From Actinomycetota bacterium (GTDB taxonomy: Bacteria > Actinomycetota > Actinomycetes > Mycobacteriales > HKI-0501): a stretch of 60,246 bases of DNA. A program made the position numbers and the translations under genes. The number at the start of each line of letters is the position of its first letter. Position 1 is the first letter of the stretch. Location: positions 1 to 60,246 of the forward strand of contig JAVEDU010000103.1 of the NCBI GenBank assembly GCA_030840805.1. Direction: 5' to 3'. Of the stretch, positions 2,378-23,361 are shown piece after piece. The notes under the pieces were generated by a model. That model searched no databases and was not told where the DNA came from. It saw nothing but the letters and a program-made list of their open reading frames with translations.

Positions 2378-2439
2378 CACCCACGGCCCGGTCGGATGAG
2401 CCGCCGGACATGCCGGTCCACAGCAGAGAGGGGACGGAG

Positions 2440-3128: not shown

Positions 3129-3142
3129 CCTGTCCCTCGACG

Positions 3143-4284: not shown

Positions 4285-4286
4285 GA

Positions 4287-5438: not shown

Positions 5439-5505
5439 TGCATCCTCCTGTGTACGGGATCGTCAAGTGATAGCAGAAGCGGCGTCTCCGAAGGTAGTAA
5501 GCGCG

Positions 5506-6150: not shown

Positions 6151-6262
6151 GACACTCCTGCACCCTTGGCAACACGACGGATCGTTCACTATGGTCAGCG
6201 TCTCACGTCGCATCCTAGACGGACAACGGGCGCCGGGCGCCCCCCGGCGGAAGGCAGGACCC
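6151..6262. promoter_or_regulatory. divergent control region upstream of carbamate kinase
   Basis: 112 bases between divergent genes. The plus-strand stretch 6211-6230 (CATCCTAGACGGACAACGGG) closely resembles the coenzyme-M operon promoter read on the minus strand at 22386-22366 (CATCCTAGTATCGACAACG). A TATGGT hexamer at 6190-6195 could be an additional minus-10. Likely promoter of the carbamate kinase-AllF-glycosyltransferase operon. Exact start sites are not determinable here. Confidence 0.4.
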
Positions 6263-9845: not shown

Positions 9846-9867
9846 GACGCCGGGCAGTCCGTGCTCC

Positions 9868-10236
9868 TCAGTGGACGTGGTCGTGGTCGGCGTGGTCGTG
9901 GCCGTGGTCCCAGCCCGCCGGGCGGGCGGCGAGCTCGCCGGCCCGGTCCCCGACCGCCCGGTCGGCGACGAGGCCGCGGGTCACCACGACCCGTTCGAGC
10001 GCCTCGAGCCAGCACCGGTAGTAGCTGAAACACTCCCCCGGCTCGTGACCGGACTCCCAGGCGGCGATCCGCGCGACCAGCTCGGTCCGGAAGTCCTCCC
10101 ACTCGAACGTGCCGGCCTCCCGCAGCGCCATCGCCAGCCCGAACGCGCGGCTCTCCCACGGTTGCGCGAACACGAGCTCGCCGTTGCTGCGCGGCGGTGC
10201 CGCGGGGCCGTCGACGTCGAGCTGCACGACGGTCAC
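9868..10236 (-). CDS. nitrile hydratase activator with His-rich tail
   Basis: Product of 122 residues homologous to the N-terminal half of nitrile hydratase beta: [20 protein letters not shown], then [15 protein letters not shown]. Such P14K/NhlE-type proteins swap with the alpha subunit and insert cobalt. The C-terminus ends in [12 protein letters not shown], an obvious metal-binding tail that supports a Co chaperone role. GTG 10236 overlaps the alpha stop (GTGA), placing it third in the beta-alpha-activator order usual for Co-type enzymes. Confidence 0.88.
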
Positions 10237-10808
10237 GCCCGCACCTCCGCGACGCCGACCATGGTGTCCCGCGCGACCAGCGCGACGAGCTGCTCCTCGG
10301 TGTGGTCCTCGGTGCCCTCCGGGCGGCGTGGCAGCACGAAGAAGCGGGCCTCGGAGCTCGAGTCCCACACCTCGATGCGCCGGTCCGCCGGAACCTCGAG
10401 GCCCATCTCGGCGAGCACCGTGCGCGGCTCGCGGACGACCCGGGCGCGGTACGCCGGGTCCTTGTACCAGGACGGCGGCAGGCCGAGCAGCGGCCACGGG
10501 TAGCAGGAGCACAGTGTGCAGACGACGACGTTGTGGACCTCGTCGGTGTTCTCCACGACGACGAGGTGCTCGCCCTGCGGGCCCTTGAAGCCCAGCTCCG
10601 CCACGGCGGCCGTGCCGTCGTCGAGCAGGCGCGCCTTGTACTCCGGGTCGGTCCACGCCTTCGCGACGACCCGGGCGCCGTTCAGCGGGCCGACGTCCTT
10701 CTCGTACATCTTGATGTAGGCGTCCATGACCTTCGGGTCGACGAGCCCGCGCTCCACCAGCAACTGCTCGAGCGCCTCGGTGCGCAGCTCGATGGGGATG
10801 CGGGTCAT
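10233..10808 (-). CDS. nitrile hydratase alpha subunit, cobalt type
   Basis: Product of 191 residues with the claw-setting motif VCTLCSC at about 96-102. The three Cys ligate non-corrin Co(III), two being oxidised to sulfinic and sulfenic forms. Thr in VCTLCSC marks the cobalt type; iron enzymes have Ser. [23 protein letters not shown] follows as usual. It hydrates nitriles (or thiocyanate in the related SCN hydrolase) to amides. The alpha subunit is slightly short compared with about 200-205 residues. ATG 10808 overlaps the beta stop. No amidase gene is found in the window, which is unusual for a nitrile-use cluster. Confidence 0.93.
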
Positions 10809-11494
10809 CCGGTCGCCTCCAGGTAGCTCTCGTACAGGTCGATGTTGAGGTCGAACTGCTCGGCGTCCGGGCCGAACAGCTCGCGGGAGCCGAAGCGCAC
10901 GGTGTACACCCACTGGGCGTTCTCGCCCTGGAAGTGGGCGTGCGAGTCGGGCAGGACCTGCGCGGGCTCGACGATGCCGACCGTGCCCTCGTGGCCCATG
11001 ACGTAGCGGGGCAGCCGGGTGTGGCCCGGCGGGTCGAACCGTCTCGCCCGGACGCGGTCGCCGACCTTGAACGCCGGCGGCGACTCGATGGTGCGGATCG
11101 AGCCCCCCGCGGTCGGCGTGTAGTCGGGCCTGTGCGGCTCCGGCGCCGGTGGTTCGTCCACATCGGACTCCCCGGCCAGCCGTGCCGCCCGGGCCTCGAC
11201 CGTGCCGGGCGCGACGATGGTGCTGTCGGACAGCAGGTTCTCGGCGCCGTGCAGCCACCGTCCGTAGTACCCGTCGTCGAAGTAGTCCTCGCGGTCGAGC
11301 CGGCTCATCGAGTGCCGGAATGCGTCGAGGTTCGTGCCCGACACCCGCATCGAGAGCAGCGCGAGGGCGAAGGCGCGCGCCTCCCACCGTTCACCGAACA
11401 CCGGCTCGTCCGGCTTCGGAACGGGGGCGCGGCCCCAGCCCTCGGCGCCGCCCAGGTCGTGGACACCCGGCGTGGGGTGGACGGTGCTCACCAT
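10805..11494 (-). CDS. nitrile hydratase beta subunit
   Basis: Product of 229 residues. N-terminal [10 protein letters not shown] and [14 protein letters not shown] are the family signature, and the C-terminal SH3-like barrel begins near [27 protein letters not shown] (about 140-166). It forms the heterodimer with alpha and lines the substrate channel. ATG 11494 has AGGAGG 2-7 bases upstream. The gene lies 62 bases after the DsrE-like gene, separated by a 12-bp hairpin, in one minus-strand run from 13666. Confidence 0.93.
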
Positions 11495-11516
11495 GGCCTC
11501 CTGTAAGGCGTGGGGT

Positions 11517-11548
11517 GGCGCCGGGCGGACCGTGGCCCGCCCGGCGCC
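11517..11548. terminator. intercistronic hairpin, 12-bp stem
   Basis: Arms GGCGCCGGGCGG (11517-11528) and CCGCCCGGCGCC (11537-11548) are perfect reverse complements with an 8-base loop. It lies between the DsrE-like gene and nitrile hydratase beta, with no T-run. It could terminate part of the transcription or stabilise the upstream mRNA so that the DsrE-like protein is made in excess. Confidence 0.55.
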
Positions 11549-11556
11549 GGGGGAAC

Positions 11557-12045
11557 TCAGACCGTCCAGGTGTTCATCTGGAAGGCGCCTTCCTTCCACG
11601 CGGTGAGCGCGGAGTCCAGCACGTCCAGCGGGCTGAACGGGATGACGCCCGGGAGCAGGTCGTCCTCACGGAACCCGTACAGCGCGCCCATCGCGAAGCG
11701 GCACGCATAGATCTTCGCGCCCTCCTTCATGAGCGTCTTGAGCTGGTCGTTGATCGCGAGGTGGCCGGGGAAGGCCGCCTGGCCCACGGCCGGGTACCCG
11801 CGGGTGCCCGATGCGAGGAGCACGCCGGGGCCGTACAGGACGATCGATACGTCGAAGCCCTTGCGGACGAGGCGCGTCGAGGTCAGCAGGTTGACCAGGG
11901 CCACCGAGCCCTCGTACGGCACGGTGTGGATGAAGATGAACGCCTTCTGCCCCGGCTCCGCCTTGATGTCGGGGAAGAGCTTCTCCTCGGCGTTGTAGAG
12001 GGTCTCTCCCTCGGCCGGGAGCTCGGTATTGACTGTCTTCGGCAT
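11557..12045 (-). CDS. MSMEG_0572/Sll0783-family DsrE-like protein
   Basis: Product of 162 residues with a DsrE/DsrF-like fold: KAFIFIHTVPYEGSVALVNLL, GFDVSIVLYGPGV, then KTLMKEGAKIYACRFAMGALYGF containing its only cysteine (about 115). That Cys is in the position where DsrE-like proteins can carry persulfide, so sulfur transfer is possible. The family was named for nitrogen-starvation response and is a hallmark of Nit1C-type clusters. ATG 12045 has AGGAGG 7 bases upstream. Co-transcribed with the flavoprotein and nitrile hydratase. Confidence 0.85.
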   Translation of the reverse strand: MPKTVNTELPAEGETLYNAEEKLFPDIKAEPGQKAFIFIHTVPYEGSVALVNLLTSTRLVRKGFDVSIVLYGPGVLLASGTRGYPAVGQAAFPGHLAINDQLKTLMKEGAKIYACRFAMGALYGFREDDLLPGVIPFSPLDVLDSALTAWKEGAFQMNTWTV

Positions 12046-12069
12046 GCAGTTCCTCCTGGTTGACGTGCT

Positions 12070-12321
12070 CTACACCGCCGGGCCGGCCGGCTGAGTCGGC
12101 TTGGGCCAGTGCTTGCGGTGGCTGCCGGGCATGGCAGCCATGACCTTGCGGCGGACCGACCACGGCGTCCACCGGTACACGGGGACGAAGATCTTCGTCC
12201 AGAAGAAGGAGCCCTCGACGGGCGGCGGCGTCATGCCGTGGATCCGGGCCACCCGCCCCTGCGCGTCCCGCAGGAGGTGGTGCTCGGCGTTCTCCCGGAG
12301 CCACCGAGACGGCGATCGCAT
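12070..12321 (-). CDS. small hypothetical protein, 83 aa
   Basis: Product of 83 residues, basic (many Arg/Lys/His), aromatic in the middle (FFWTKIFVPVYRWTPWSVRR), with no signal and no cysteine. I do not recognise it. It sits 1 base after the flavoprotein stop and 24 bases before the DsrE-like start, so it is clearly part of the operon. The central hydrophobic-aromatic stretch might touch membrane or a partner protein. Confidence 0.65.
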   Translation of the reverse strand: MRSPSRWLRENAEHHLLRDAQGRVARIHGMTPPPVEGSFFWTKIFVPVYRWTPWSVRRKVMAAMPGSHRKHWPKPTQPAGPAV

Positions 12322-12322
12322 G

Positions 12323-13666
12323 TCAGGCTCCCCGGGCCGCCGCGGCGACGCCGTCTTGCGCGGCGACCGCGATCGGCTCGTTCAGCGCCCCGATCGGGGG
12401 CGAGTAGACGTTCTCCATGGTGGCGAGGTCGTGGAGCGTGAGCCCCTTCTTCACCGCGACGCCGAGGAAGTCCGCCCGTTCCTTGATCCCCTCGCCGCCG
12501 ACCATCTGCGCGCCGATGAGGCGCAGGCTGCCCGGCTCGGCGAGGAGCTTGACCCGCACCGGCTTCACGCCGGGGAAGTACCGCGCCCGCGAGATGCCGG
12601 TGGCGCGGCCGACCACGTACGGCATGCCGAGGGCCTCGGCCGCCACCTCGCCGAACGCGACGCCGCCGATGATCCACTTGCCCGCGACGGTCGCCCAGGG
12701 GACGTAGACCGGCTGGTACGACCGGTCGCCGCCGCCGGCGTTGAAGCCCGCGACCTTGCCCTGGGCGTACGCGTGGCTGCCGGTGAGGCCCTGCAGCGGG
12801 ACTCCCGCGATGTGCGGGATCTCGCAGACGTCGCCGGCCGCGAACACGCCGGGGACCGAGGTCAGCATGTGGTCATTGACGACGACACCCCCGGTCGAGC
12901 CGATCGCGAGGCCGCCCGCGACGGCGAGCGCGTTGCTGGGCACCTTGTGCGTCGCGACGACGACGAGTTCGGCCGGGAGCTCACCGCCGGACGTGGCGAC
13001 CCCGCGGACGTGTCCGGCGCCGTCGTCGAGAAACGCCTCGAGCTTGGTGTTCCAGTGCATCTGCACGCCCATCTCGGCCCAGGACTCCTGGACCGGGGCG
13101 ACGACGTCGGGGTCACAGAGGTCGCCGAGCGCCCACGGGTGCGGGTCGATCACGTGCGTCTCGATCCCGCGGTGGGCGAGCGCGGTGACCATCTCCAGGC
13201 CGAGTGGCGAGGCCTCCACGACGACCGCGCGCTTCACGGTGTCGAGGACCTTGTCCCACTCCATCGCGGCACGGATGTTCTTGACCCGGTACAGGCCGTC
13301 GAGGTCACTGCCCGGGACGCCCGGGTCCTTGTAGTCGAAGCCGGTGGCGACGACGAGCGCGTCGTACGCGACCTCGCCCACCCCCTCGACGTGGACCCGC
13401 TTCGCGGCCGTGTCGATCGACCGCACCGTCGTCTCGTACGAGATCTCGATGCCGGCGTCCACATAGGCCTGCTTGTCCGCGAGGAACAGGGACTGGAAGT
13501 CCGGGATTTCCTTGCCGTGCACGTACGGGATGCCGCAGGGACTGTAGGCGACGTCTTCGAACTGCGTGAAGACGAGGACTCTGTTGGCGGGGTCGGCGGC
13601 CTTCACGCCACCTGCCGCGCCTATTCCGGCGGCACCGCCTCCGACGATCACAACTGTTCGAGCCAA
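12323..13666 (-). CDS. CoA-disulfide-reductase-like flavoprotein with altered NAD loop
   Basis: Product of 447 residues of the pyridine nucleotide-disulfide oxidoreductase class with a single redox Cys, like CoA-disulfide reductases. FAD loop VVIVGGGAAGIGAAGG (5-20); redox site YSPCGIPY with Cys44; second FAD motif VPGVFAAGDVCEI (about 272-284); dimerisation domain at the C-terminus. The second Rossmann loop, normally GxGxxG for NAD(P)H, reads VVVEASPLGLEM (about 167-178), so two of the three glycines are gone. Electron donor may therefore not be NAD(P)H. Likely role: reducing a mixed or cofactor disulfide or persulfide. TTG 13666 has GAGGTGGG upstream. First gene of the nitrile hydratase transcript. 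Confidence 0.82.
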   Translation of the reverse strand: MARTVVIVGGGAAGIGAAGGVKAADPANRVLVFTQFEDVAYSPCGIPYVHGKEIPDFQSLFLADKQAYVDAGIEISYETTVRSIDTAAKRVHVEGVGEVAYDALVVATGFDYKDPGVPGSDLDGLYRVKNIRAAMEWDKVLDTVKRAVVVEASPLGLEMVTALAHRGIETHVIDPHPWALGDLCDPDVVAPVQESWAEMGVQMHWNTKLEAFLDDGAGHVRGVATSGGELPAELVVVATHKVPSNALAVAGGLAIGSTGGVVVNDHMLTSVPGVFAAGDVCEIPHIAGVPLQGLTGSHAYAQGKVAGFNAGGGDRSYQPVYVPWATVAGKWIIGGVAFGEVAAEALGMPYVVGRATGISRARYFPGVKPVRVKLLAEPGSLRLIGAQMVGGEGIKERADFLGVAVKKGLTLHDLATMENVYSPPIGALNEPIAVAAQDGVAAAARGA

Positions 13667-13716
13667 GGGAACCCACCTCGGTGGTGCGGCTAGGCGTACA
13701 TCATTGGAACCGGGCG

Positions 13717-13753
13717 CGTTGACTATGCTGCATGGGATTTCGCGGTGTCAACG
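13717..13753. promoter_or_regulatory. promoter and inverted repeat between flavoprotein operon and regulator
   Basis: On the minus strand, TTGACA (13751-13746) and CATAGT (13727-13722) are separated by 18 bases, a good promoter for the flavoprotein-nitrile hydratase operon. The same stretch is bounded by a 7-bp inverted repeat, CGTTGAC (13717-13723) and GTCAACG (13747-13753). The coenzyme-M operon promoter at 22368-22405 has the same architecture, so this may be the operator of the adjacent XRE-cupin regulator. Confidence 0.5.
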
Positions 13754-13802
13754 GGTTCACCGGTACGTTTTGATCAGGGCGCAAAACTCCGAGGGAGACG
13801 AC

Positions 13803-14417
13803 ATGACCCAGACCTTCCCCGCGGCGGGCGATGGCGACGACGCGGCCGACCAGGTCAGGGAGATCGTCAGCCTCATCGGCCCGAAGCTGCACGAGCTCCG
13901 CAAGACGAAGGGACACTCGCTCCAGCAGCTCGCGACCCTGTCCGACGTGTCGGCGGCCGCGATCCACAAGATCGAGCGGAACGGCATGGTCCCGACGATC
14001 ACGACCCTGCTGAAGCTCGGGACCGCGCTCGGCGTTGCGGTGAGCTACTTCGTCGACGAGGAGGGCATGGCCCCCCAGCGGGTCGTGTACACCCCGGCGG
14101 ATCAGCGCTCGGTCGTCTTCACGCCGCACCAGGGGCTCACCCTCGACGGGATCACCGGGAGCTACCGGCAGTTCCAGACCGCGGCCGCGATGGCGACGAT
14201 CAGGCCGGGCGCGAACAGCGGGGAGAAACTGCTGGAGCACCCGGGCGAGGAGTTGGTGCACATCACCGAGGGGGTTCTCAGCTTCGAGGTCGGGGGCGAG
14301 AGCTTCCGCCTCGGCGCAGGTGACTCCCTGCACTTCGGCGGGGAGCTCCCGCACCGTTGGGCGAACAAGGGCGACGGCCCGGCACGCGGCGTCTGGGTCG
14401 CCCTCCGCAGCGCCTGA
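13803..14417 (+). CDS. XRE-family regulator with cupin sensor domain
   Basis: Product of 204 residues. The helix-turn-helix is at about 22-76 (SLQQLATLSDVSAAAIHKIE is the DNA-reading part). A C-terminal cupin_2 domain at about 130-200 has HPGEELVHITEGVLSFEV and GDSLHFGGELPHRW. Such proteins are usually local repressors whose cupin binds the pathway metabolite. ATG 14417-coding frame starts at 13803 after GAGGGAGACG. Divergent from the flavoprotein operon across a region with a 7-bp inverted repeat. It is the only regulator in 3817-23361 and so the prime candidate to control the island. Confidence 0.88.
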   Translation: MTQTFPAAGDGDDAADQVREIVSLIGPKLHELRKTKGHSLQQLATLSDVSAAAIHKIERNGMVPTITTLLKLGTALGVAVSYFVDEEGMAPQRVVYTPADQRSVVFTPHQGLTLDGITGSYRQFQTAAAMATIRPGANSGEKLLEHPGEELVHITEGVLSFEVGGESFRLGAGDSLHFGGELPHRWANKGDGPARGVWVALRSA

Positions 14418-14432
14418 CCGCCGTCGCGCCGA

Positions 14433-14831
14433 TCACTGCCGCGACACATGGGATACGGTAATCTGCGGCGGTTTCCGCAGTGTGTTGGTCACGTAACAGA
14501 CCCGTTCCGCGGCGGCCATCAGCCGCTCGGCGTCGGAGTCCGGGAGGGGCGTGACGACCTCGATCGCGAGGTCGGAGAACCGCGGACCGTCGTACGTCCC
14601 GGTCACCGCGACCTCGACCGCGGGCAGCGCGACGTCCCGCTTCCGGGCGCTGTAGACCAGCGCGAGCACGAAGCACGACGCGACCGACGCGAGGAAGTAG
14701 TCGGTCGGCTGCGGGCCGGTGTCGTCGCCGCCCACCGACGGCGGCTCGTCGATACGCTGGGTGAAGCGGCCGGCGGTGACGTCGACCTGGAAGCCGGTGC
14801 GCCACTGCGCATTCACGATACGGGTCGTCAT
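14433..14831 (-). CDS. OsmC-family protein
   Basis: Product of 132 residues, OsmC/Ohr fold. Two conserved cysteines are in ASCFVLAL (about 52) and ERVCYVTNTL (about 111), the peroxidatic/resolving pair. Family members reduce organic hydroperoxides or act on other activated sulfur or acyl species. ATG overlaps the AllH stop (ATGA), so it is the last gene of the coenzyme M-AllGH operon and probably protects or handles a thiol intermediate. Convergent with the XRE gene, 15 bases apart. Confidence 0.85.
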   Translation of the reverse strand: MTTRIVNAQWRTGFQVDVTAGRFTQRIDEPPSVGGDDTGPQPTDYFLASVASCFVLALVYSARKRDVALPAVEVAVTGTYDGPRFSDLAIEVVTPLPDSDAERLMAAAERVCYVTNTLRKPPQITVSHVSRQ

Positions 14832-15580
14832 GCATGGCCTCTCTCGTCGGTACAGGCTCTCTCGTGTCGACAACCGATCAGGAACCCGTGGGCGAGATCC
14901 AGACCGGACGTGTGCCCCACCGCGGCGAGCCGCGCGCGGGCCCGCCGTGCCGCGGGTGCGTCCCCGGCCGCGCACGCGGCCGCGAGGTCGTGCAGCGCGG
15001 CGACCGACCGACCCCGCGCCGCCCAGCCCAGGAACGCCCGGGAGATCTCGTGCGTCCGCGCTCCCCTGGCCAGGGCCAGCAGATCCCGCTCCGGCTGTCC
15101 CGCCGCGCGGGCGGCCAGGAGCAGGCCGGCGAGCACGTCGTCCCCTGCCGGGGTCAGTCCGATCCCCCGGCCGGCGAGCAGGGCTGCCGCAGTGGCCAGC
15201 CCGTGCCGCCGCAGGGTCTGCGTGATGTCGTCGCCAGGTGCCCCTCCGAGGTCGAGATCGGGTCGGTGGTCGAGCACGTCGGCCAGCACGCCGACGACCT
15301 CGGCCACCGGGGGGAACGGCGGTGGCCGCCACACCTCCGCACACCCCGGCACGTCGAGGACGTCACCGACCGCGACCGACGGCAGCGCTGCCACGTGTGC
15401 ATGCAGCGGTCCCGGCTCGGCAGCCGTACCGACCAGGGCGAGCAGACCACGGGGGTACGACAGATAGACGGCGCGGCGGAACACCGCGACGACACGGCCG
15501 GGGGCGCCACCGGTGAGCGCCGCCGCGGCCCCCTCGCCGACCCGGACCGGCCGGACGACCGGGCCCGGCGCGGCCACCAT
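14828..15580 (-). CDS. allH: AllH-like (DUF2877) carbamoyltransferase subunit
   Basis: Product of 250 residues, DUF2877 family. The conserved segment LAGRGIGLTPAGDDVLAGLLLAAR (about 150-173) is the signature, followed by ISRAFLGWAARG. With FdrA/AllF and AllG it forms the E. coli oxamate carbamoyltransferase. ATG 15580 is 2 bases after the AllG stop with GAGGAG overlapping it. The separation of allGH from allF onto opposite strands within the same island implies coordinated control of two transcripts. Confidence 0.83.
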   Translation of the reverse strand: MVAAPGPVVRPVRVGEGAAAALTGGAPGRVVAVFRRAVYLSYPRGLLALVGTAAEPGPLHAHVAALPSVAVGDVLDVPGCAEVWRPPPFPPVAEVVGVLADVLDHRPDLDLGGAPGDDITQTLRRHGLATAAALLAGRGIGLTPAGDDVLAGLLLAARAAGQPERDLLALARGARTHEISRAFLGWAARGRSVAALHDLAAACAAGDAPAARRARARLAAVGHTSGLDLAHGFLIGCRHERACTDERGHA

Positions 15581-15582
15581 CC

Positions 15583-16986
15583 TCACTCCTCCCGCAGCGC
15601 GAGCATCGCCGCGCGGAACCCCTCGAGCGGCGCCGTCGCCACCCCGGCGCCGATCTGCCCGCTGCCGTCCGTGGCGTGCAGGATCCCGGTGTTCACCTTC
15701 GGGGTGAGGCCGGTCTCGACGACCTTCCGCACGTCCACCCCGACCGGTGTCCCCCGGAAGTCCATCGTCGGGATCTTGAACCGGGTGCTCTCGGCCGCGC
15801 AGATCTGCTGCATCTCCCGGGTCGCCCGGGCGGCGTCGGCCATGGACCCGCCGAGGAACGCCGCCACCGCCGCGGAGCCCGCCGCCGCCGGGCCGCCGAG
15901 ACCGATCAGTTCGAGCACGGCGCTGTCGCCGATGTCCGGCGCGGCCACCTCCGGGCCGTACCCGGAGTAGTACAGCGCATCCCCGACGGGCGGTGAGTCG
16001 GTCACGTGCCACCGGTCCGACCCGGCGAGCTTCACGCCGTACGTCGTGCCGTTGCGCGCCATCGTCGTCACGATGCTCGACCCCTCGACCCGCTCGGCCC
16101 ACAACGTGAGGGACTTCGCGGCGGCCATCGCCAGCGTGAGGAAGAACAGGTGGTTGCCGGCCAGGTACTCGGCGAACGCCACCGAGTCCGCGTCGTCGCC
16201 CAGCGCGGCGATCGCCGGGAGGACACTGCGGATGAACAGGTTCGTCGACGCCTGGGTCCGCATGTGGACGTCGTCGCCCATCTGGACGCCCTGCGCGGCC
16301 AGCGCGAACACGTCGATCGGCCCCACCTGCTCGACGATCCGCGCGAGCCGCGGCCCGGCGACCTCCCGCAGGAACACCAGCCGCTCCACCGCGGCGGCCG
16401 ACTCCCGGCCGAACCAGGCCACGTCCCCGGGCCCCTGCCCGATCGGCGCGTACGCCGTGGTGCCGCCGTCGCGGTTCTCCACCACCCACACCGGCATGCT
16501 CGGCCCCAGCGCGGTGGCCATCGGGACGACCGCGGCGTGCTCGTTGGCCGACCCGAGCCGCACCTCGCCGCCGGCCAGCAACTCCTCCGCGGCGGCCACG
16601 TCGCCGGCCCAGCCCTCGGCGACGACCGCCGCGCGCATCGACCGGCGCAGCGGGTCGCACACGTCCGCGTACGCGATGGGCGGCCCCGGGTGGAGCAGCA
16701 TCCGGTCGCCGAGGCCGGGCACCACGTCGGCCGCGGTCCGCACGGCGACGAGTTGCGGCACTCCCTGGTCGAGCCGCCGCAGCACCTCGGCGTTGGCCGC
16801 GTCCAGGGCGACGGACCTCAGCCCGTACAGGTCGGTGAGCGCCCGGACGTCCTCGGCGTCACCGTCCGCGGGCGGGCGCCAGTCGACCTGGACGACGGAC
16901 GCACCCTGCGCCGCGGCGGCCTGGGCGAACAGTGACAGCCCGATGTTCACGACGCGTGCGTCGGTGGGCAGCTCGGTCCTGGTCAC
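15583..16986 (-). CDS. allG: AllG-like (DUF1116) carbamoyltransferase subunit
   Basis: Product of 467 residues, DUF1116/YlbE family. Segments typical of it are VCDPLRRSMRAAVVAEGWA, GSANEHAAVVPMATALGPSMPVW, VEGSSIVTTMARNGTTYGVKL and the C-terminal KIPTMDFRGTPVGVDVRKVVE. It is the presumed large subunit of the AllFGH carbamoyltransferase. GTG 16986 follows AGGGGA and begins 15 bases after the ASL-like lyase stop, so it is transcribed with the coenzyme M genes. That linkage is the main reason to suspect a thiol-linked carbamoyl substrate. Confidence 0.85.
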   Translation of the reverse strand: MTRTELPTDARVVNIGLSLFAQAAAAQGASVVQVDWRPPADGDAEDVRALTDLYGLRSVALDAANAEVLRRLDQGVPQLVAVRTAADVVPGLGDRMLLHPGPPIAYADVCDPLRRSMRAAVVAEGWAGDVAAAEELLAGGEVRLGSANEHAAVVPMATALGPSMPVWVVENRDGGTTAYAPIGQGPGDVAWFGRESAAAVERLVFLREVAGPRLARIVEQVGPIDVFALAAQGVQMGDDVHMRTQASTNLFIRSVLPAIAALGDDADSVAFAEYLAGNHLFFLTLAMAAAKSLTLWAERVEGSSIVTTMARNGTTYGVKLAGSDRWHVTDSPPVGDALYYSGYGPEVAAPDIGDSAVLELIGLGGPAAAGSAAVAAFLGGSMADAARATREMQQICAAESTRFKIPTMDFRGTPVGVDVRKVVETGLTPKVNTGILHATDGSGQIGAGVATAPLEGFRAAMLALREE

Positions 16987-17001
16987 GCTGATTCCCCTCG
17001 A

Positions 17002-18435
17002 TCATCGCCCGGCGAGCGCCGTTGCACGGGCCCGGAGTGCGGTTTCCGCCGCGTGGACCGCGGCACGTCGATCGTCCACATCGGATCGCAAGGCGGCCGC
17101 TTCGCCGCGGACCCGGTCGAGCATCGGCGCCATCGCCGCCGGCGCGGCGCCGCCGAGCGCGGTCCGGGAGGCGACCAGCGCGCGGGCGTCCGTCATGGCC
17201 GCGAGCTCGTCGTCGGGCAGCCGCCACTCGGTGCCCACCACCGACGCGGCGGCCGCCGCGACCGCGTCGGCCGACAGGGAGCCGGACCGGACGGCGCGCT
17301 GCACCACCCGGTGCGCGGTGCGGTAGTCGGCGCCGAAGCGGGACATCAGCAGCTCGGCCAGGTCCGCCGCGGCCGTGAAGCCGAGGTCGAGCGCGGCCTC
17401 CATCCGGGCCGGGTCCGGGGTGAGCGACCCGACGACCCCGGTCGTCAGCGCGGTCACCCGCACGGCGAGGTCGAGGGTTCGCGGGATTTCCCCGTACAGG
17501 TAGATGAGGTTGTCGCTGCGGGCCGACGGCGTCTTGACGACCGCGAGCGTCCCGGTGAGCCGGCCCAGCGCGACGCCGGCGGACCCGCGGACCACGGTCA
17601 GGGCGTACGGGTTCCGCTTCTGCGGCATGAGGATGCTCGGCCGGCTGTGGGCCTCCGCGAGGTCCACGAAGCCGAACTCGGCGCTCGCGAAGATCTCCAG
17701 GTCCTCGGCGAGCTTGTCCTGGCCCACCAGCAGGGTGGTGGCCGCGGCGACGACGTGCACGAACGGATCGGTCTGCCACATGGCGTCGCGGGTGTGCTCG
17801 ATCGCGTGGCCGAACCCGAGCAGCCGCGCGGTGCCGTCCCGGTCGTCGAGGATCCGGGACCCGTTCGCCGCCCCCGACCCGGCGGGGCTCGCGTCGACAT
17901 GCGCCAGTTCGAAGAGCAGCCGCCCGGCGTCCCGGAGCACCGGGTCGGCGAACGACAGCAGGTAGTGGCCGAACGTCGTCGGCTGCGCCTGCTGCAGGTA
18001 CGTGTAGTCCGGCATCAGCGTCTCGACGTGCTCGCCCGCCCGCCGGGCCAGGACCGCGGCGAGGTCCGCCGCCGCCGCGACGAGATCGAGCACCTGGGAG
18101 CGCACCCGGAGCCGGAAGGCGGTGCGCACCGCCTCCCGGCGGGTCCGCCCGGCGCGCAGCCAGCCCGCGTGGTCGCCGATCCGCAGGGCGAGGTGGTGCT
18201 CGCGCGCGTCGTACACCTCGCCGTGCGCGGGGTCGTAGTCGACCGCCGCCGCGGGCAGCGCGGCGAGGTCGAGCAGGGCGCCGAGCAGCGCGGTCCGGGC
18301 GGCCCCGGTGAGGATCCCGCGGTCGGCGAGCTCCACCGCGTGGGCGAGGTCGGCGAGGTTGAGCCCGTCGTGCAGCTCCGGTGCGTCGGCGACCTCCCAG
18401 CCGTACCCGGCCGCGACGAGCTCGTCGGCGGTCAC
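17002..18435 (-). CDS. argininosuccinate-lyase-like enzyme (XcbD-type)
   Basis: Product of 477 residues of the fumarase/aspartase superfamily. SGAANGSRILDD lies in the first conserved region, DKLAEDLEIFASAEFGFVD in the second, and SILMPQKRNPYA is the signature loop. No arginine biosynthesis genes are near. The neighbours (ComA homologue, a second lyase and a PLP enzyme) reproduce the Xanthobacter xcbB-xcbC-xcbD-xcbE coenzyme M set, in which one lyase removes phosphate from phosphosulfolactate and a second joins a thiol donor to sulfoacrylate. By family this one corresponds to XcbD. GTG 18435 overlaps the PLP gene stop. Confidence 0.82.
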   Translation of the reverse strand: MTADELVAAGYGWEVADAPELHDGLNLADLAHAVELADRGILTGAARTALLGALLDLAALPAAAVDYDPAHGEVYDAREHHLALRIGDHAGWLRAGRTRREAVRTAFRLRVRSQVLDLVAAAADLAAVLARRAGEHVETLMPDYTYLQQAQPTTFGHYLLSFADPVLRDAGRLLFELAHVDASPAGSGAANGSRILDDRDGTARLLGFGHAIEHTRDAMWQTDPFVHVVAAATTLLVGQDKLAEDLEIFASAEFGFVDLAEAHSRPSILMPQKRNPYALTVVRGSAGVALGRLTGTLAVVKTPSARSDNLIYLYGEIPRTLDLAVRVTALTTGVVGSLTPDPARMEAALDLGFTAAADLAELLMSRFGADYRTAHRVVQRAVRSGSLSADAVAAAAASVVGTEWRLPDDELAAMTDARALVASRTALGGAAPAAMAPMLDRVRGEAAALRSDVDDRRAAVHAAETALRARATALAGR

Positions 18436-19412
18436 CCGGTCACCCCGGGGACCGCGAGGAGCTTCAGCGCGCTCGGCATCCCGCCGGTGTGCCACAGCAC
18501 GAGCGGGGCGCGCTCGCCCGCCCGGACGAGCTCGATGACCGCGGTGATCGCCTTCGCGCCGTACGTGGAGTCGAAGAGCACACCCTCGGTGCACAGCGCG
18601 AGCTGGACGTTGCGCCGGTCCTCGTCGGTGACCCGGCCGAACCCGGGGCCGACGGCGTCGCGGAGGTGCAGGTCCGCCTCGGTGGGCGCCGGGGTGCCGA
18701 GGAGCGTGGCGCAGCGGCCCGCGAGCCCCAGCACGTGCGGCCCCACCAGCTCCCGCGGGCGGCTGACCGAGACGCCGCACGTTCGCCAGGTCGCGCCGAC
18801 CGCGGCGCGGCCGGCGAGGAACCCGGCCAGCGACGCCCCCGACCCGGTCGGCAGCACGACGACGGCGTCGGTGCCGAGCGGACCGGCCAGCTCCGCGTCC
18901 GACTCGAGCTGGCACGCCAGCTCCCTGGCGGCCGCCGCGAACCCGAGGGCCCCGACCGGGGTCGCCCCGCCGCGCGGGACCGCGTACGGGGTGCGACCCG
19001 CGGCCGCGAGCGCCGCGCAGTGCGCGTCGACGAGCTCGTCGAGCCGTTCCCGGTCCGCCCCGGTGAACCGCAGGGTCGCCCCGGCACGGCGGGCCAGCTC
19101 GAGCGTGACGGGCAGGCGGTCCGGGGGGACCCCGGAGACGAGCACCTCGCAGTCCAGCCCGGCGACCCGTGCGGCGAGGGCCGCGGCGCCCGCGAAGTTC
19201 GAACCCGGTGCGCCGCCCGTCACCAGCACGTCGGCGCCCTCGGCGAGTGCGGCGCCCAGCAGGTACTCGAGCGCCCGCGCCTTGTTGCCGGCGAGCCCGA
19301 AGCCGATCAGGTCGTCCCGCTTGAGGTACAGCGGCCCGCTGTCCAGGGCGGCCTCCAGCCTCGGCAGCCGGTGCAGCGGCGTCGGCAGCAGCGCGAGCCG
19401 GTAGCGCTTCAC
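18432..19412 (-). CDS. PLP-dependent D-cysteine desulfhydrase-like enzyme (XcbE-type)
   Basis: Product of 326 residues, fold type II PLP enzyme of the ACC deaminase/D-cysteine desulfhydrase family. The PLP lysine is in GLAGNKARALEYLLGAAL (about 43-60), followed by GGAPGSNFAGAAALAA and the phosphate cup GSGASLAGFLAG; GTYGAKA appears as STYGAKAIT near the end. In the bacterial CoM route the PLP member cleaves a C-S bond to release the thiol. GTG 19412 overlaps the previous stop (GTGA). Confidence 0.83.
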   Translation of the reverse strand: MKRYRLALLPTPLHRLPRLEAALDSGPLYLKRDDLIGFGLAGNKARALEYLLGAALAEGADVLVTGGAPGSNFAGAAALAARVAGLDCEVLVSGVPPDRLPVTLELARRAGATLRFTGADRERLDELVDAHCAALAAAGRTPYAVPRGGATPVGALGFAAAARELACQLESDAELAGPLGTDAVVVLPTGSGASLAGFLAGRAAVGATWRTCGVSVSRPRELVGPHVLGLAGRCATLLGTPAPTEADLHLRDAVGPGFGRVTDEDRRNVQLALCTEGVLFDSTYGAKAITAVIELVRAGERAPLVLWHTGGMPSALKLLAVPGVTG

Positions 19413-20722
19413 GGCGTCCCCCGCGCCACCACGGCGTCGACCATCGCGCCCGCGGTGTCGACCGCGGGCCGCGCGGCCCAGTCCGCGACCTCCTCGGCGG
19501 TGGCCGCCCCGGCCGCGGCCAGCGCGGCCACCAGGTCACCGCCGCCCGCCAGCGCGGCCTGCATGAGCTCCTGCGCCCGGTGCTTGCCGAGCCGCGCGGA
19601 CAGCTCCGCGAGCACCCGCTCCGAGCCGGCGGCCGGGCCGAGGTTGGTCCGCATCCGGTCGGCGTGCACGACGAGCCCCGCCACGAGGTCGGCGGCGAGC
19701 GCGGCCGCGGTGCCGGTGGCCTGTGCGACCTCCGGGAGGGCGAACCACTCCGCCTTCCAGGACCGGCCGTCCCGCTCGTGGCCGGACACCAGCCCCTCGA
19801 CGAGCACCCCGGCCGCGGCGCGCGCGACCCGGGCGAGCGTGTCGAGGTGCTCGGAGGTCTCCGGGTTCCGCTTGTGCGGCATCGTGATGCTGCCGACCGT
19901 CGTGGCCCGCGGCGCCTCGTCCAGCTCGCCGATCTCGGGCCGCTGCAGCTCGTACACCTCGGTGCCGATCCGCGCGAGCGTCCCCGCGGTGAGGGCCAGG
20001 ACCGTGCCGAACTCCCCCACCCGGTCCCGGGTGGACGTCCACGACAGGCCTGGATCGGCCAGGCCGAGCCGGGCGCAGAAGCGCCGCCGCAGTTCCAGCC
20101 CCCGCTCCCCGAAGAACCCCAGCACGCCGACCGCCCCCGCGAGCTGCCCCACCGACCAGCGGCGGCCGCCCTGGTCCAGACGCTCCAGCTGGCGGCCCAG
20201 CTCGTCCGCCCAGGTGGCGGCCTTGTACCCGAACGTGATCGGAGCGCCGGGCTGCCCGTGCGTCCGGCCGGCCATCACGGTGTCGCGGTGCGCGGCGGCG
20301 AGCGCCAGCAGGGTCGCGTGCGCGCGGGCCACGTCCCGGCGGACCAGCCGCCCGACGTCCCGCATGACGAGACCGAACCATGTGTCGGTGAGGTCCTGCA
20401 CGGTGGCGCCGTAGTACACGTACTCGCGTGCCGGCTCCGGCAGGATCCGCTGCAGGCCGTGGATCAGGCCGAGCGTGGAGTGCGCGGTGCGCCGGGTCTC
20501 GGCGGCGACGAAGTCGAGATCGAGGTGCTCCACCTTGGCGTGCGCGGCCACCTGGTCCGCCGCCTCGCCGGGGATGATCCCGAGTTCGGCCTGGGCTGCG
20601 GCGAGCGCGGCGAGCACGTCCAGCCACGCCTGCAGCCAGGCCGGCTCGTCGAACAGCGCGACGAGCTCGGGCGTGCTCCACAGGTGGCCGTAGACGGCCG
20701 AGTCGGTCAGACGGGTCGCCAC
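19409..20722 (-). CDS. adenylosuccinate-lyase-like enzyme (XcbC-type)
   Basis: Product of 437 residues, fumarase/aspartase superfamily with the PurB-type start DSAVYGHLWSTPELVALFDE, ETRRTAHSTLGLIHGLQ, GRTHGQPGAPITFGYK, and signature VGSITMPHKRNPETSEH. It resembles XcbC of Xanthobacter, which eliminates phosphate from phosphosulfolactate to give sulfoacrylate; family-level resemblance only. No purine genes are nearby. GTG 20722 lies inside the end of the preceding unknown gene (16-base overlap). Confidence 0.83.
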   Translation of the reverse strand: MATRLTDSAVYGHLWSTPELVALFDEPAWLQAWLDVLAALAAAQAELGIIPGEAADQVAAHAKVEHLDLDFVAAETRRTAHSTLGLIHGLQRILPEPAREYVYYGATVQDLTDTWFGLVMRDVGRLVRRDVARAHATLLALAAAHRDTVMAGRTHGQPGAPITFGYKAATWADELGRQLERLDQGGRRWSVGQLAGAVGVLGFFGERGLELRRRFCARLGLADPGLSWTSTRDRVGEFGTVLALTAGTLARIGTEVYELQRPEIGELDEAPRATTVGSITMPHKRNPETSEHLDTLARVARAAAGVLVEGLVSGHERDGRSWKAEWFALPEVAQATGTAAALAADLVAGLVVHADRMRTNLGPAAGSERVLAELSARLGKHRAQELMQAALAGGGDLVAALAAAGAATAEEVADWAARPAVDTAGAMVDAVVARGTP

Positions 20723-21603
20723 GTGGGGTCCCACCGCTCGGCGAGCTCCTCCAGGGCGCTGCGGACCTGCTCCAGCGTCGCGCCCCACGGCACCACCACC
20801 CGCCCGCCGTCCCGCGCGTTCTCGGCCTCGAGCAGGCAGCACTTGGCCAGCACCGCGGTCCGGCCGTCGTGCGGCCGCTCCCGCGGGCACATCTCCACCC
20901 TCGGCGCGGCCGACCCGTAGAACCACTCGTGGATCTCGGCGGAGCGGTGGCAACCGAGCAGCGTCCAGTCCTCGTGCGGCGGGCGCTCGTCCAGGTACGC
21001 GGTCACCGCACCGGGGACCTCCACGCCCGCGCCGCGGCACGGCAGCAGGTACCGCTCCGCGGGCCCCGCCCGCCCCGAGAGCTCGGCGAAGCTGACCACC
21101 TCGGCCTCCGGGAGCATCGGCGGCAGGTCCTCCGCGACGGCGAGGAGCCGCCGCACCTGGTCGTACAGCTTGGCGGGCTCCGGGGGGACCACCTCCTGCA
21201 CGACCAGGCGCAGCGGTGCCGGGTTGACGATGAAGCTGATGTGCTCGTACATGCCCTGCACGACCACCGCGCGGGACCCGGGCGCCCGCTCGACCGCGAC
21301 CCGGGCGAGCTCCGACGGCACCGCGGTATCCGCGTCCGGGGCCACCACGTACGCGCACTCGTCGGGCCCGGCGACGAGCTCGACGGCGACGATCGGGGAG
21401 AACAGCGGCTCCTCCGACTCCTTCTCGGCGGTGAGCAGCGCGGTCCGGCCGGCCCGGTCCCGGACCACGAGGAACCGGGTGCGCCGCCACGCCTCCTTGC
21501 CGACGAAGTACTCCCGGAGGTGCTCCTCCTCCAGCGGGAGGTCCACCTCGTTCACGGAGACGCCGCGGTACGCGCTCGGGACGGCGTTCGGACGGTCCCT
21601 CAA
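20707..21603 (-). CDS. hypothetical protein in coenzyme M-type operon, 298 aa
   Basis: Product of about 298 residues that I do not recognise. It has alternating beta-strands and helices, no membrane segment, and several Cys and His (LLPCRGAG, LLGCHRSAEIHEWFYG, VEMCPRERPHD, AKCCLLEAE), in the C-terminal half, which suggests metal binding or thiol chemistry. It is wedged between the ComA and XcbC-type genes with overlaps on both sides, so it very likely takes part in the same pathway; a missing step after sulfoacrylate (for example decarboxylation) is a candidate role. The start is uncertain: TTG 21603 overlaps the ComA stop, GTG 21555 is an alternative. Confidence 0.7.
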   Translation of the reverse strand: MRDRPNAVPSAYRGVSVNEVDLPLEEEHLREYFVGKEAWRRTRFLVVRDRAGRTALLTAEKESEEPLFSPIVAVELVAGPDECAYVVAPDADTAVPSELARVAVERAPGSRAVVVQGMYEHISFIVNPAPLRLVVQEVVPPEPAKLYDQVRRLLAVAEDLPPMLPEAEVVSFAELSGRAGPAERYLLPCRGAGVEVPGAVTAYLDERPPHEDWTLLGCHRSAEIHEWFYGSAAPRVEMCPRERPHDGRTAVLAKCCLLEAENARDGGRVVVPWGATLEQVRSALEELAERWDPTWRPV

Positions 21604-22367
21604 CACGGTCGGCCGAGGGTCAGGTGCGCGGTGTCGGCCCGGAGTCCCAGCCGCAGGGTGGTCAGCGCCAGCACGTCGTCGGGCGCGATGTTGGCGAGGT
21701 TGACGCCAGGCCCGAACTGGCCGATGAACCACGTCTGCTGGTCCTTCCGCGGCGCCTCGAACAGCACCCGCTCCACCCCGGCGGCCTCCACCGCGGCCGC
21801 CACGATGTCCGGGCGCGGGCTGCCGGAGCCGTCGTACACCCCGACCGTGCCGCTCTCCCGGCCCTCCGCGACGACCCAGGTCGCGCCCGCCGCGACATCG
21901 TCGGACATCTCGTCCCGCCAGTGCTGCGCCGGCAGGAGCACGCGCGGGTCCTTCATGCCGGTCTCGGCGAACACGACGAACGACTCGGCGGCCCGCTTGA
22001 CCAGCTCCCGCTTCGCGTCGAGCGGCATCTCGGCGACCCCGCGGGACACCTCGACGGCCTCGAAGCCGACGTCCGCCGCCCACGAGAGGCACTCCTCGGC
22101 CCGGCCCTGGGACCACGCGATCTCCAGCAGGGTGCCGCCGAGGCACGGCGTGACGTCGTGCTCGCGCAGGCAGGTGAGCTTGCGGTCCAGACGCCGCTCC
22201 AGGTACGCGGTGCCCCAGCCGAACTTCCAGACGTCGATCTCGGGCCCGACCGCGTCGAGCAGCGCGGCGAGCGCGTCGGCGGTCAGCCCCTTGTCGAGCA
22301 CATGGGTGAGACCGGTCTCGCGGGGCTTGCGCTCCCGCGCCGGCAATGAGAGAACGAAGGGGCTCAC
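21600..22367 (-). CDS. comA: phosphosulfolactate synthase (ComA/XcbB-like)
   Basis: Product of 255 residues, (2R)-phospho-3-sulfolactate synthase family, TIM barrel. Typical stretches are THVLDKGLT at the first strand, VWKFGWGTAYL, PCLGGTLLEIA, GFEAVEVSRG, VFAETGMKD and FEAPRKDQQTWFI. It adds sulfite to phosphoenolpyruvate, the first step of coenzyme M synthesis. GTG 22367 is the probable transcription start as well: a TAGTAT box ends 7 bases upstream and TTGTCG lies 18 bases before that, the layout of a leaderless actinobacterial mRNA. First gene of an eight-gene operon ending at 14433. Confidence 0.87.
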   Translation of the reverse strand: MSPFVLSLPARERKPRETGLTHVLDKGLTADALAALLDAVGPEIDVWKFGWGTAYLERRLDRKLTCLREHDVTPCLGGTLLEIAWSQGRAEECLSWAADVGFEAVEVSRGVAEMPLDAKRELVKRAAESFVVFAETGMKDPRVLLPAQHWRDEMSDDVAAGATWVVAEGRESGTVGVYDGSGSPRPDIVAAAVEAAGVERVLFEAPRKDQQTWFIGQFGPGVNLANIAPDDVLALTTLRLGLRADTAHLTLGRPC

Positions 22368-22405
22368 GTTGTCGATACTAGGATGGGCGTTTACTTTGCG
22401 ACAAC
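22368..22405. promoter_or_regulatory. leaderless promoter of the coenzyme M operon within a 7-bp inverted repeat
   Basis: On the minus strand, TTGTCG (22404-22399), 18 bases, TAGTAT (22380-22375), 7 bases, then GTG 22367. Arms GTTGTCG (22368-22374) and CGACAAC (22399-22405) flank it. The plus-strand AIR-synthase-like gene begins inside the same element at TTG 22396, so the two divergent genes share a 28-base gap. TAGGAT at 22379-22384 could serve the plus strand. Confidence 0.5.
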
Positions 22406-23361
22406 CCACGCCGGAAGAGTTCGATGCTGTCGTCGCCGCGATAGCCGCGAATCCGTCGATCGCGGCCAAACGCGACATCGGGCTCGTGTCCGAGGTGCTG
22501 GGCGCCGCGGAGTGGCTGTCCGGCCCGGGCGACGACGGGGCGGCCCTCGACGCCGACGGCCGCACGGTCATCGCCTGCGGCGAGGCTCTGTGGCCGCCGT
22601 TCGTGCGGGCCGACCCGTACGGCGCGGGGATCGCGGCCGTCCTCGCGAACGTCAACGACGTCGCGGCGATGGGCGGCACCCCGCTCGGCATCGTGGACAC
22701 GATCGTCGCGGACGAGGCCACCGCCCGGGCGGCGCTCGCCGGGATGCGGTACGCCGCGGAGCTGTACCGGGTGCCGATCGTGGGCGGGCACCTCACCCTG
22801 ACGGACGGCCCGCCGTCGCTGTCCGCGTTCGCGGTCGGGTCGGCGGACGCGGTGCTGTCCGTCATCCACGTCGCGGCCGGGCAGGACCTCGTCGTCGCCG
22901 CCTGCACCGAGGGGACGATGCGGGACGACTTCCCGTTCTTCCGGTCGTTCGACGAGCGCGGCCCGGCGCTCGCCGACGACGTGCGACTGCTCCGCGAGGT
23001 GGCTGCCGCCGGGCTCGCCGTCGCGGCGAAGGACATCAGCATGGCGGGCCTCGTCGGCTCGCTCGCGATGCTGCTCGAGTGGGGCACGTACGGCGCCACG
23101 GTGGACCTGGCGGCGCTGCCCGCGCCGCCGGACGTCCCGCTCGCGCGGTGGTGCAACTGCTTCCCGTGCTTCGGGTTCCTGCTCACCTGCCCGCCGGACC
23201 GGACCGAGAAGTGCGTGCAGGCGTTCACCGACCGGGGGCTCGACGCGGCCCGGGTGGGCGTGGTCGATACGACCGGGCAGATCGTGCTCCGCGCCGGCGA
23301 CAGGTCGGCCGTGGTGGCCGACCTGTCGCGGACCCCGGTGACGGGACTGCGGCGTCCTTGA
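22396..23361 (+). CDS. Sll0787/MSMEG_0566-type AIR-synthase-like protein
   Basis: Product of 321 residues, PurM/AIR-synthase fold (HypE, SelD, ThiL relatives). GDDGAALDADG (about 46-56) is the ATP-binding start, ANVNDVAAMGGTPLGIVD the catalytic helix region, VPIVGGHLTL the second conserved strand, and CNCFPCFGFLLTC a cysteine-rich segment near 250-262. Family members phosphorylate a carboxylate or amide oxygen with ATP. It is part of Nit1C-type clusters; substrate unknown. TTG 22396 has GGATGGG 6-12 bases upstream. Divergent from ComA. Confidence 0.82.
   Translation: MRQPTPEEFDAVVAAIAANPSIAAKRDIGLVSEVLGAAEWLSGPGDDGAALDADGRTVIACGEALWPPFVRADPYGAGIAAVLANVNDVAAMGGTPLGIVDTIVADEATARAALAGMRYAAELYRVPIVGGHLTLTDGPPSLSAFAVGSADAVLSVIHVAAGQDLVVAACTEGTMRDDFPFFRSFDERGPALADDVRLLREVAAAGLAVAAKDISMAGLVGSLAMLLEWGTYGATVDLAALPAPPDVPLARWCNCFPCFGFLLTCPPDRTEKCVQAFTDRGLDAARVGVVDTTGQIVLRAGDRSAVVADLSRTPVTGLRRP

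Follow-up and report, generated by a model that had tools for sequence, protein, structure and literature searches.

A block of about 20 genes on a 60,246-nucleotide stretch of DNA from an Actinomycetota bacterium (contig JAVEDU010000103.1; this whole stretch is called the window hereafter) brings together genes for coenzyme M (CoM) biosynthesis, homologues of the carbamoyltransferase subunits AllF, AllG and AllH and of the carbamate kinase AllK, a cobalt-type nitrile hydratase and genes of the Nit1C cluster. This cluster is real and conserved and has not been found in the searchable literature, and the gene block points to a second, undescribed bacterial job for CoM, which in bacteria has so far been tied to epoxide metabolism. 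Gene content, conservation, co-occurrence with CoM genes, the lack of a match of the grade of an epoxyalkane:CoM transferase (EaCoMT) and the lack of an amidase in the loci lead us to consider the block as one module of about 20 kb, which would combine Nit1C-type nitrogen scavenging with AllFGH, AllK and its own CoM; CoM would be the dedicated thiol of a route for nitrile or cyanide nitrogen ending in carbamoyl phosphate and ATP, and would not be destined for epoxides. From this evidence we infer the direction of the route, its substrates and the part of CoM in the chemistry, and our confidence in the reading as a whole falls just short of even.

Coenzyme M genes in one predicted operon with AllG, AllH and OsmC

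Eight genes run on the minus strand from 22367 to 14433, in the order comA/xcbB, XcbA-family (DUF7714), xcbD, xcbE, xcbC, allG, allH and osmC as assigned with Pfam and NCBIfam, and gene ends and start codons place their junctions between a 16-base overlap and a 15-base gap. The phosphosulfolactate synthase gene comA/xcbB (21600..22367, GTG start 22367; PF02679 268 bits, cut-off 25; TIGR03849 236 bits, cut-off 280) is followed by the XcbA-family gene (20707..21606; NF052538 316 bits, cut-off 150; PF24830 287 bits, cut-off 25), which starts with TTG 21603 or GTG 21606, stops at 20707 and shares 4-7 bases with comA; its DUF7714 match is in frame up to 21588, and the alternative GTG 21555 would create a 44-base gap. 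The adenylosuccinate-lyase-like xcbD (19409..20722, GTG start 20722; NF052536 599 bits, cut-off 600) overlaps the XcbA-family gene by 16 bases, and 4-base overlaps join it to xcbE (19409-19412), which encodes a pyridoxal-phosphate enzyme (18432..19412; best match NF052537, 232 bits, cut-off 450), and xcbE to the argininosuccinate-lyase-like xcbC (18432-18435; gene 17002..18435; NF052535 433 bits, cut-off 575). After a 15-base gap (17001-16987) containing a purine-rich stretch, the AllG-like subunit is encoded (15583..16986; PF06545 221 bits, cut-off 27; solved homologue 3clq; placement in a tree), followed with 4-base overlaps each by the AllH-like subunit (14828..15586; PF11392 77 bits, cut-off 25) and the OsmC-family protein (14433..14831; PF02566 64 bits, cut-off 27.5).

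The complete comA-DUF7714-xcbD-xcbE-xcbC set is thereby present, with these families as the best matches and four of the five genes under the curated NCBIfam cut-offs. Judged by their sequences, XcbC, XcbD, XcbE and ComA are clear homologues of CoM enzymes, not certified equivalogs, with XcbD short by one bit. According to PMC8727900, users of vinyl chloride have xcbB1, C1, D1 and E1 plus an extra xcbF1 between xcbB1 and xcbE1, and it is this xcbF1 position, between comA and the lyases, that is occupied by the DUF7714 gene.

The description of eight tightly packed minus-strand genes in an earlier note on this DNA is borne out by gene ends, start codons and families. Its wording that they are fused into one operon holds for a co-directional operon as predicted from the gene layout, and does not hold in the sense of a protein fusion. 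A promoter or terminator between 17002 and 16986, which that note had named as speaking against a common operon, was not seen; in fact, neither a sigma-70-like promoter nor an intrinsic-terminator-like site appeared in 14300-23500 (shuffle means 0.0 and 1.0), a weak test for a G+C-rich actinobacterium. Its proposal of an operon joining CoM genes with AllG, AllH and OsmC, a combination that it did not know, was right and at the same time too narrow, as AllF, AllK, nitrile hydratase and Nit1C genes of the same window were missed, which change the likely meaning of the operon.

The wider gene block

Reading in the other frames and family scans extend the eight-gene operon to a block of about 3.8-23.4 kb with about 20 genes. 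Nit1C genes open the block on the minus strand with a GNAT acetyltransferase of the MSMEG_0567/Sll0786 family (3817..4365, start approximate; TIGR04045 102 bits, cut-off 68) and a radical SAM protein of the MSMEG_0568 family (4287..5438; TIGR04043 383 bits, cut-off 304), followed on the same strand by the conserved cluster protein orf5506 (5506..6156, start approximate), which lacks a Pfam or NCBIfam match, has 23-36% identical homologues in cluster loci and, with an AlphaFold pLDDT of 78, gave no fold match in the PDB at E<=0.001. On the plus strand lie genes for an AllK-like carbamate kinase (6266..7213; 42% to E. coli AllK; arcC 342 bits, cut-off 358; PRK12352 306 bits, cut-off 266), an AllF/FdrA-like subunit of the oxamate transcarbamylase type (7210..8712; 38% to E. 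coli AllF; NF004760 384 bits, cut-off 433) and a glycosyltransferase of the MSMEG_0565 family (8709..9845; TIGR04047 357 bits, cut-off 260). Thus homologues of all three subunits of AllFGH oxamate transcarbamylase, together with one of AllK, are encoded in the window.

The nitrile hydratase is complete and all its parts score above cut-off. Its minus-strand genes encode the accessory protein (9868..10245, start approximate; TIGR03889 76 bits, cut-off 46), the alpha subunit of the cobalt type (10233..10862, true start probably ATG 10808; TIGR01323 305 bits, cut-off 250) and the beta subunit (10805..11599, true start probably ATG 11494; TIGR03888 168 bits, cut-off 152); the metal claw CTLCSC of the alpha subunit aligns with cobalt-type structures, and the best solved match is 4ob1, a cobalt nitrile hydratase. 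The minus strand continues with the Nit1C gene for a DsrE-fold protein of the MSMEG_0572/Sll0783 family (11557..12045; TIGR04044 207 bits, cut-off 110; PF02635), the small conserved protein orf12070 (12070..12321; 16-row alignment, no family match, moderate structure prediction and no PDB match at E<=0.001) and, adjoining it, a coenzyme A-disulfide-reductase-like (CoADR) flavoprotein with a single active-site cysteine in the motif SPCGIPY (12323..13666; TIGR03385 224 bits, cut-off 579). An apparent fusion of orf12070 with the MSMEG_0572-family protein in locus L096 was rejected, since its translation past about residue 82 is an out-of-frame read-through. An XRE-cupin regulator (13701..14417, plus strand, start approximate; HTH_3 and Cupin_2) lies at the osmC end of the eight genes, and a sll0787-like AIRS-family protein is encoded divergently from comA (22390..23361, plus strand, start approximate; TIGR04049 264 bits, cut-off 321).

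Outside the block, a molybdopterin sulfite-dehydrogenase-like gene at 1083-2240 (SorA/SorT/SoxC models, under cut-offs) is a near neighbour of the cluster, which for its CoM would depend on sulfite. The right half of the window encodes MlaD-domain proteins (35011-36306 and 41442-42674), probably parts of an mce-like transport operon.

Conservation across genomes

In Planosporangium flavigriseum (L018), the AllG of which is 83% identical to that of the window, nearly all of the block recurs in its order: a divergent AIRS gene stands before the eight genes, which are arranged as in the window, and CoADR, the MSMEG_0572-family gene, nitrile hydratase, glycosyltransferase, AllF and AllK come after them. 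Whole or partial versions of the gene set occur in L013-L015, L018 and many further actinobacterial loci. An AllG-alignment scan of genome contigs retained the best 80 of 106 confirmed relatives. In an AllG tree of 90 rows, midpoint-rooted for drawing only, a branch (100/99) separates 42 rows, the window among them, from all others, E. coli-type AllG included; these 42 belong to a group of 47 rows (100/97) that also holds L054/L055 (Bacillota) and L134-L136. The 42 rows represent 39 genomes once three row pairs of the same assembly are merged. CoM genes, meaning any of the five, lie inside the fetched AllG locus in 25 of these 39 genomes; a genome-wide search for DUF7714 in the remaining 14 was positive in all 12 Pseudonocardia and in G768 and negative in a Modestobacter metagenome-assembled genome (G791), which brings CoM-biosynthesis genes to 38 of the 39 genomes, 13 of them with the genes elsewhere in the genome. 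Thus the joining of CoM genes with AllG, AllH and OsmC proposed by the earlier note is real and recurs in relatives. Among the 43 tree rows outside the Nit1C-linked group, the fetched loci gave no match to comA, xcbA, xcbD, xcbE, Nit1C genes or nitrile hydratase, next to one 28% ArgH-like match and one 30% CoADR match.

In 13 Pseudonocardia CoM regions the xcb genes are accompanied by OsmC (13), CoADR (11), the small protein (11), the MSMEG_0572-family protein (9) and GNAT (9), with misses in L190 and L193-L195, some of them at contig ends. As a control, a search of 396 Actinomycetota for the radical SAM protein gave 22 genomes above cut-off. DUF7714 was present in all seven genomes with a CoADR-like gene in the region (G424, G580, G768, G558, G516, G485, G642), and equally in G437, the region of which has CoM genes and no CoADR match. 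It was present in none of the nine genomes with Nit1C genes but no CoADR or CoM match in the region, namely six with Nit1C genes and no All, CoADR or CoM match there (G033, G758, G080, G604, G513 and G492, the last a region of two genes at a contig end) and three of an AllG/AllK/amidohydrolase type without CoADR (G714, G535, G471); four genomes with unrelated radical SAM proteins had no DUF7714 either. A sample of 397 genomes of the order gave DUF7714 in 6, four of which (the window's genome G000, G067, G142, G160) carry the cluster gene set. Chance neighbourhood was rejected by the conserved gene order and the genome-wide test.

Two observations concern the distribution of AllG. Metagenome-assembled genomes titled Bifidobacterium breve (L020, L021, L023, L027) carry the cluster or parts of it, a label that looks mistaken because their AllG groups with those of the window and Planosporangium. 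The window's genome has a second, divergent AllG (L005; contig C54, 46104-46745), with no AllF, AllH or AllK match in 15 kb and, by translation reading, a glutamine-synthetase-like enzyme, a class-I glutamine-amidotransferase-like hydrolase and a permease as neighbours.

Conserved cysteines

The single cysteine of the CoADR-like flavoprotein is kept in 31 of 37 matches, a number that includes a few genes counted twice; among the six exceptions, three are explained by contig edges, and three, in Pseudonocardia (P. sulfidoxydans, P. sp. N23 and P. sp. SCN 73-27), have lost the residue. Conservation extends to Cys53 (33 of 33) and Cys112 (32 of 33) of OsmC and to Cys115 of the MSMEG_0572-family protein (43 of 43 rows, among them nitrilase-type and other Nit1C). 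In the three Pseudonocardia without the flavoprotein cysteine (L033-L035; L193, L196, L197), the nitrile hydratase of the AllG locus is reduced to remnants. This correlated loss was considered as support and has been weakened, as only the AllG-adjacent copy has decayed and the genomes (G780, G781, G782) retain full-length nitrile hydratase alpha elsewhere, with at least three above cut-off each. The joint decay counts as one event of uncertain meaning, because the three genomes are close relatives with full-length alpha genes elsewhere, and the retained genes slightly lower the odds both of the nitrogen-scavenging module and of CoM acting as a carrier, which is considered below.

A proposed route from nitriles or cyanide to carbamoyl phosphate

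In the nitrogen-scavenging module, the cobalt nitrile hydratase would replace the nitrilase of Nit1C and hydrate nitrile or cyanide nitrogen to a carbamoyl compound (H2N-CO-X), the carbamoyl group of which AllFGH would transfer to phosphate; AllK would subsequently convert the carbamoyl phosphate into ATP, ammonia and CO2, while the single-cysteine flavoprotein and OsmC would handle the thiol and disulfide forms of CoM. The amide made by a nitrile hydratase usually goes on to an amidase, and in the window's genome the other nitrile hydratase (L200) does adjoin an amidase (PF01425) and a NicO metal transporter. When this amidase served as query, it had no match in the 66 cluster loci, of which 23 encode nitrile hydratase alpha and several are overlapping views of single contigs (for example L014/L046 and L015/L049); NicO occurs in six of the 66. 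An amide that AllFGH consumes in place of an amidase would be expected to be a heteroatom-bound carbamoyl group.

A more specific, rather doubtful possibility is that CoM acts as the covalent carrier of one nitrogen-bearing carbon, from CoM thiocyanate (CoM-SCN) through S-carbamoyl-CoM to carbamoyl phosphate. CoM-SCN would arise when cyanide attacks the CoM disulfide, or a mixed disulfide that CoM forms with the flavoprotein cysteine; hydration by nitrile hydratase would turn it into S-carbamoyl-CoM, and phosphorolysis by AllFGH would release CoM and carbamoyl phosphate for conversion by AllK into ATP, ammonia and CO2, whereby a poison would be turned into nitrogen and energy. According to PMC9291117, cyanide cleaves disulfides, with the glutathione mixed disulfide giving GS-CN and cystine giving beta-thiocyanoalanine, which cyclises. 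CoM thiocyanate, unlike that of cystine, could not do so; CoM would suit the role because it has no amine to cyclise with. Against a carrier stand the CoM-holding cluster genomes without nitrile hydratase, the Methylocystis plasmid with a nitrilase and without a match to AllH or AllK in 40 kb, and the Nit1C-AllFG clusters without DUF7714.

Several observations weigh against the nitrogen-scavenging module as a whole. Nitrile hydratase genes lie near AllG in 24 of the 42 rows and the alpha subunit in 20, and in 7 rows an Amidohydro_2 gene is found. Eight of 12 cluster genomes have the alpha gene, four on the cluster contig (G000, G142, G160, G558) and four on other contigs (G067, the cluster contig of which ends in the accessory gene, G424, G437, G516), and G580, G768, G485 and G642 carry CoM genes with no nitrile hydratase alpha genome-wide; an Amidohydro_2 gene lies in the region in three of these last four. 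Nitrile hydratase was present in all of a set of 15 genomes, mostly in several copies, and is so common in the group that its genome-wide presence says little. Equally, Nit1C-AllFG linkage without DUF7714 exists (L054, L134-L136), which makes CoM an addition to the gene set, and the 40 kb of the Methylocystis plasmid that were analysed contain a nitrilase instead and gave no match to nitrile hydratase, AllH or AllK. Furthermore, the glycosyltransferase fits a catabolic route poorly, and XcbC, XcbD, XcbE, ComA, AIRS and AllF are all under the curated NCBIfam cut-offs.

Alternative explanations

The CoM genes might serve epoxide metabolism as in known bacteria, their location here being an accident of operon shuffling, an explanation that is already strongly disfavoured and which we regard as very improbable. 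Its basis is that bacterial CoM genes are known from epoxide users, as described in PMC8727900 and PMC11507031. The EaCoMT query was a gene of M. chubuense NBB4 (L164, 31651-32760), which is annotated as cobalamin-independent methionine synthase II family and was assigned the name EtnE here from its position directly before alkene monooxygenase genes. The two tested CoM genomes that lack the cluster (G099, G262) gave matches of 73-74%, each on the contig with the xcb genes. In the 12 cluster genomes the matches did not exceed 33% identity, the best one in the window's genome being 25% identical (E 7e-4; assembly 95% complete), and EtnE and alkene monooxygenase alpha gave no match in the window. 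In the 15 further cluster genomes the best full-length match was 34% and none lay on the contig of the DUF7714 gene; 14 of the 15 have distant methionine-synthase-II-type relatives, with pieces up to 49% over about 105 residues, and one had no match at all. The search with EtnE of NBB4, positive in two controls, therefore disfavours an epoxide role in 27 cluster-type genomes, none of which has an EaCoMT-grade match, and so does the linkage conserved in 38 of 39 genomes. A tree of ComA and XcbD, which took in 30 of 37 loci, likewise has a branch (FastTree, local support 0.80) that divides the 26 cluster loci from the 4 etn-type loci. On the other side of the balance, the Methylocystis plasmid, which possibly once had an epoxide function, carries a decayed EtnE-like fragment (residues 13-66 and 91-119 of 369) at a distance of about 5 kb from its cluster.

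Two explanations that do without epoxides deserve closer attention. It seems unlikely, though worth serious consideration, that AllFGHK is an ordinary oxalurate or ureide pathway joined to Nit1C, with CoM, OsmC and CoADR acting as a general redox system that protects from cyanide or oxidants. Actinobacteria usually already have mycothiol, beside which a second general thiol would be odd, and the link of CoM with just this gene set is specific. The genes that could be named in the 3.8-23.4 kb block, in which two proteins are without a family, include neither an allantoinase nor a ureidoglycolate gene. E. coli AllFGH, on the other hand, is reported to be an oxamate transcarbamylase (PMC11326118), OsmC and CoADR do belong to thiol-redox families, and a Desulfosporosinus metagenome-assembled genome (L054) combines Nit1C genes and AllFGHK with a GlcD-like oxidase that could make oxalurate. 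This locus (1870-15132), without DUF7714 and without a CoADR match, furthermore encodes OsmC, an amidohydrolase and an iron-sulfur partner of the oxidase with TfrB as its best NCBIfam match, under cut-off; it is a possible anaerobic counterpart of the cluster, and its oxidase and partner could serve the oxalurate route or another thiol. The cluster could also be biosynthetic, with AllK and AllFGH supplying carbamoyl groups, with AIRS, radical SAM, GNAT and glycosyltransferase building a CoM-derived or nitrile-bearing cofactor or metabolite, and with nitrile hydratase in tailoring or recycling; this we consider about as unlikely. The Nit1C gene types do look biosynthetic, and one member of the AIRS superfamily, HypE, converts an S-carbamoyl into an S-cyano group by dehydration. 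Weak matches to the HypE model were obtained for AIRS of L054 and L014 (E 2e-4 and 2e-5), but none at E<=0.001 for AIRS of the window.

Significance

Many soil actinobacteria have kept this block, in which CoM biosynthesis is connected with genes that apparently take nitrogen from nitriles or cyanide. In the open-access literature searched, no paper joins coenzyme M with Nit1C, sll0783 or MSMEG_0572, and none combines four of coenzyme M, nitrile hydratase, thiocyanate, cyanide and carbamoyl phosphate, the bare pair of coenzyme M and nitrile hydratase not having been searched; phosphosulfolactate and nitrile hydratase co-occur in one paper, apparently a sponge transcriptome. If the nitrogen-scavenging module exists, bacteria would use CoM in a second role and the enigmatic Nit1C genes could be read in chemical terms, and CoM would be predicted in cells growing on cyanide or nitriles, with CoM-SCN and S-carbamoyl-CoM as substrates. 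It would also aid the annotation of DUF1116/DUF2877 (AllG/AllH), MSMEG_0572 and CoADR-like genes.

Comparison with known systems

Homologues of all four E. coli allFGHK genes are found in the window (AllF 38%, AllG 38%, AllK 42%, AllH by PF11392), the E. coli enzyme yielding carbamoyl phosphate from oxalurate according to PMC11326118. The window genes differ in being split in two places, and the window AllG is extended at its N-terminus by a segment similar to the C-terminal tail of FdrA/AllF; it stands apart from E. coli and mycobacterial AllG types in the tree, and 31 positions are conserved differently between 42 cluster-type and 42 other rows (at 85% and 80%). With a classic nitrile hydratase operon the window shares the cobalt-type alpha, the beta and the accessory protein, whereas AllFGH and a carbamate kinase are nearby in place of an amidase match.

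The xcb/etn operons of epoxide users (Xanthobacter Py2, M. chubuense NBB4, Nocardioides JS614) have, in the NBB4 and JS614 records, the same order of comA, a gene in the DUF7714 position, xcbD, xcbE and xcbC, and a divergent FAD oxidoreductase adjoining comA is a shared feature. The window flavoprotein is, however, 31% identical to the etn ones compared with 59% to that of the Methylocystis cluster. This cluster on a Methylocystis iwaonis plasmid (L016, 11054-17991) has cydAB (cytochrome bd) directly beside nitrilase-type Nit1C with CoM genes, AllF and AllG; CydAB as a general mark of cyanide was dropped, as among the 85 loci searched the one on the Methylocystis plasmid alone showed it.

The Nit1C cluster itself (Podar 2005; nitBCDEFGH of cyanotrophic Pseudomonas; sll0783-sll0787 of Synechocystis; comparator L017) comprises seven genes and was defined with a nitrilase by Podar et al. 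(PMC1199592), who noted a glycosyltransferase in some clusters, and PMC11049912 reports it as essential in Pseudomonas for cyanide assimilation and as allowing growth with cyanide as nitrogen source. Four window genes are among these seven, MSMEG_0572, MSMEG_0568 radical SAM and MSMEG_0567 GNAT above cut-off (TIGR04044, 04043, 04045) and AIRS with TIGR04049 as best match at 264 of 321 bits, below cut-off, and the MSMEG_0565 glycosyltransferase is shared with some Nit1C clusters. Nitrilase (query from L017), MSMEG_0569, MSMEG_0570 and Pnap_2097 had no match in the window at E<=0.01. The window differs in having nitrile hydratase in the place of the nitrilase, in adding AllFGHK, CoM biosynthesis, the CoADR-like flavoprotein and OsmC, and in an AIRS of a separate subtype, 36-39% identical to nitrilase-type AIRS. 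By its shared genes, the cluster thus appears to be a variant of Nit1C, though the nitrilase, a defining gene, is absent, and it would work in nitrogen scavenging.

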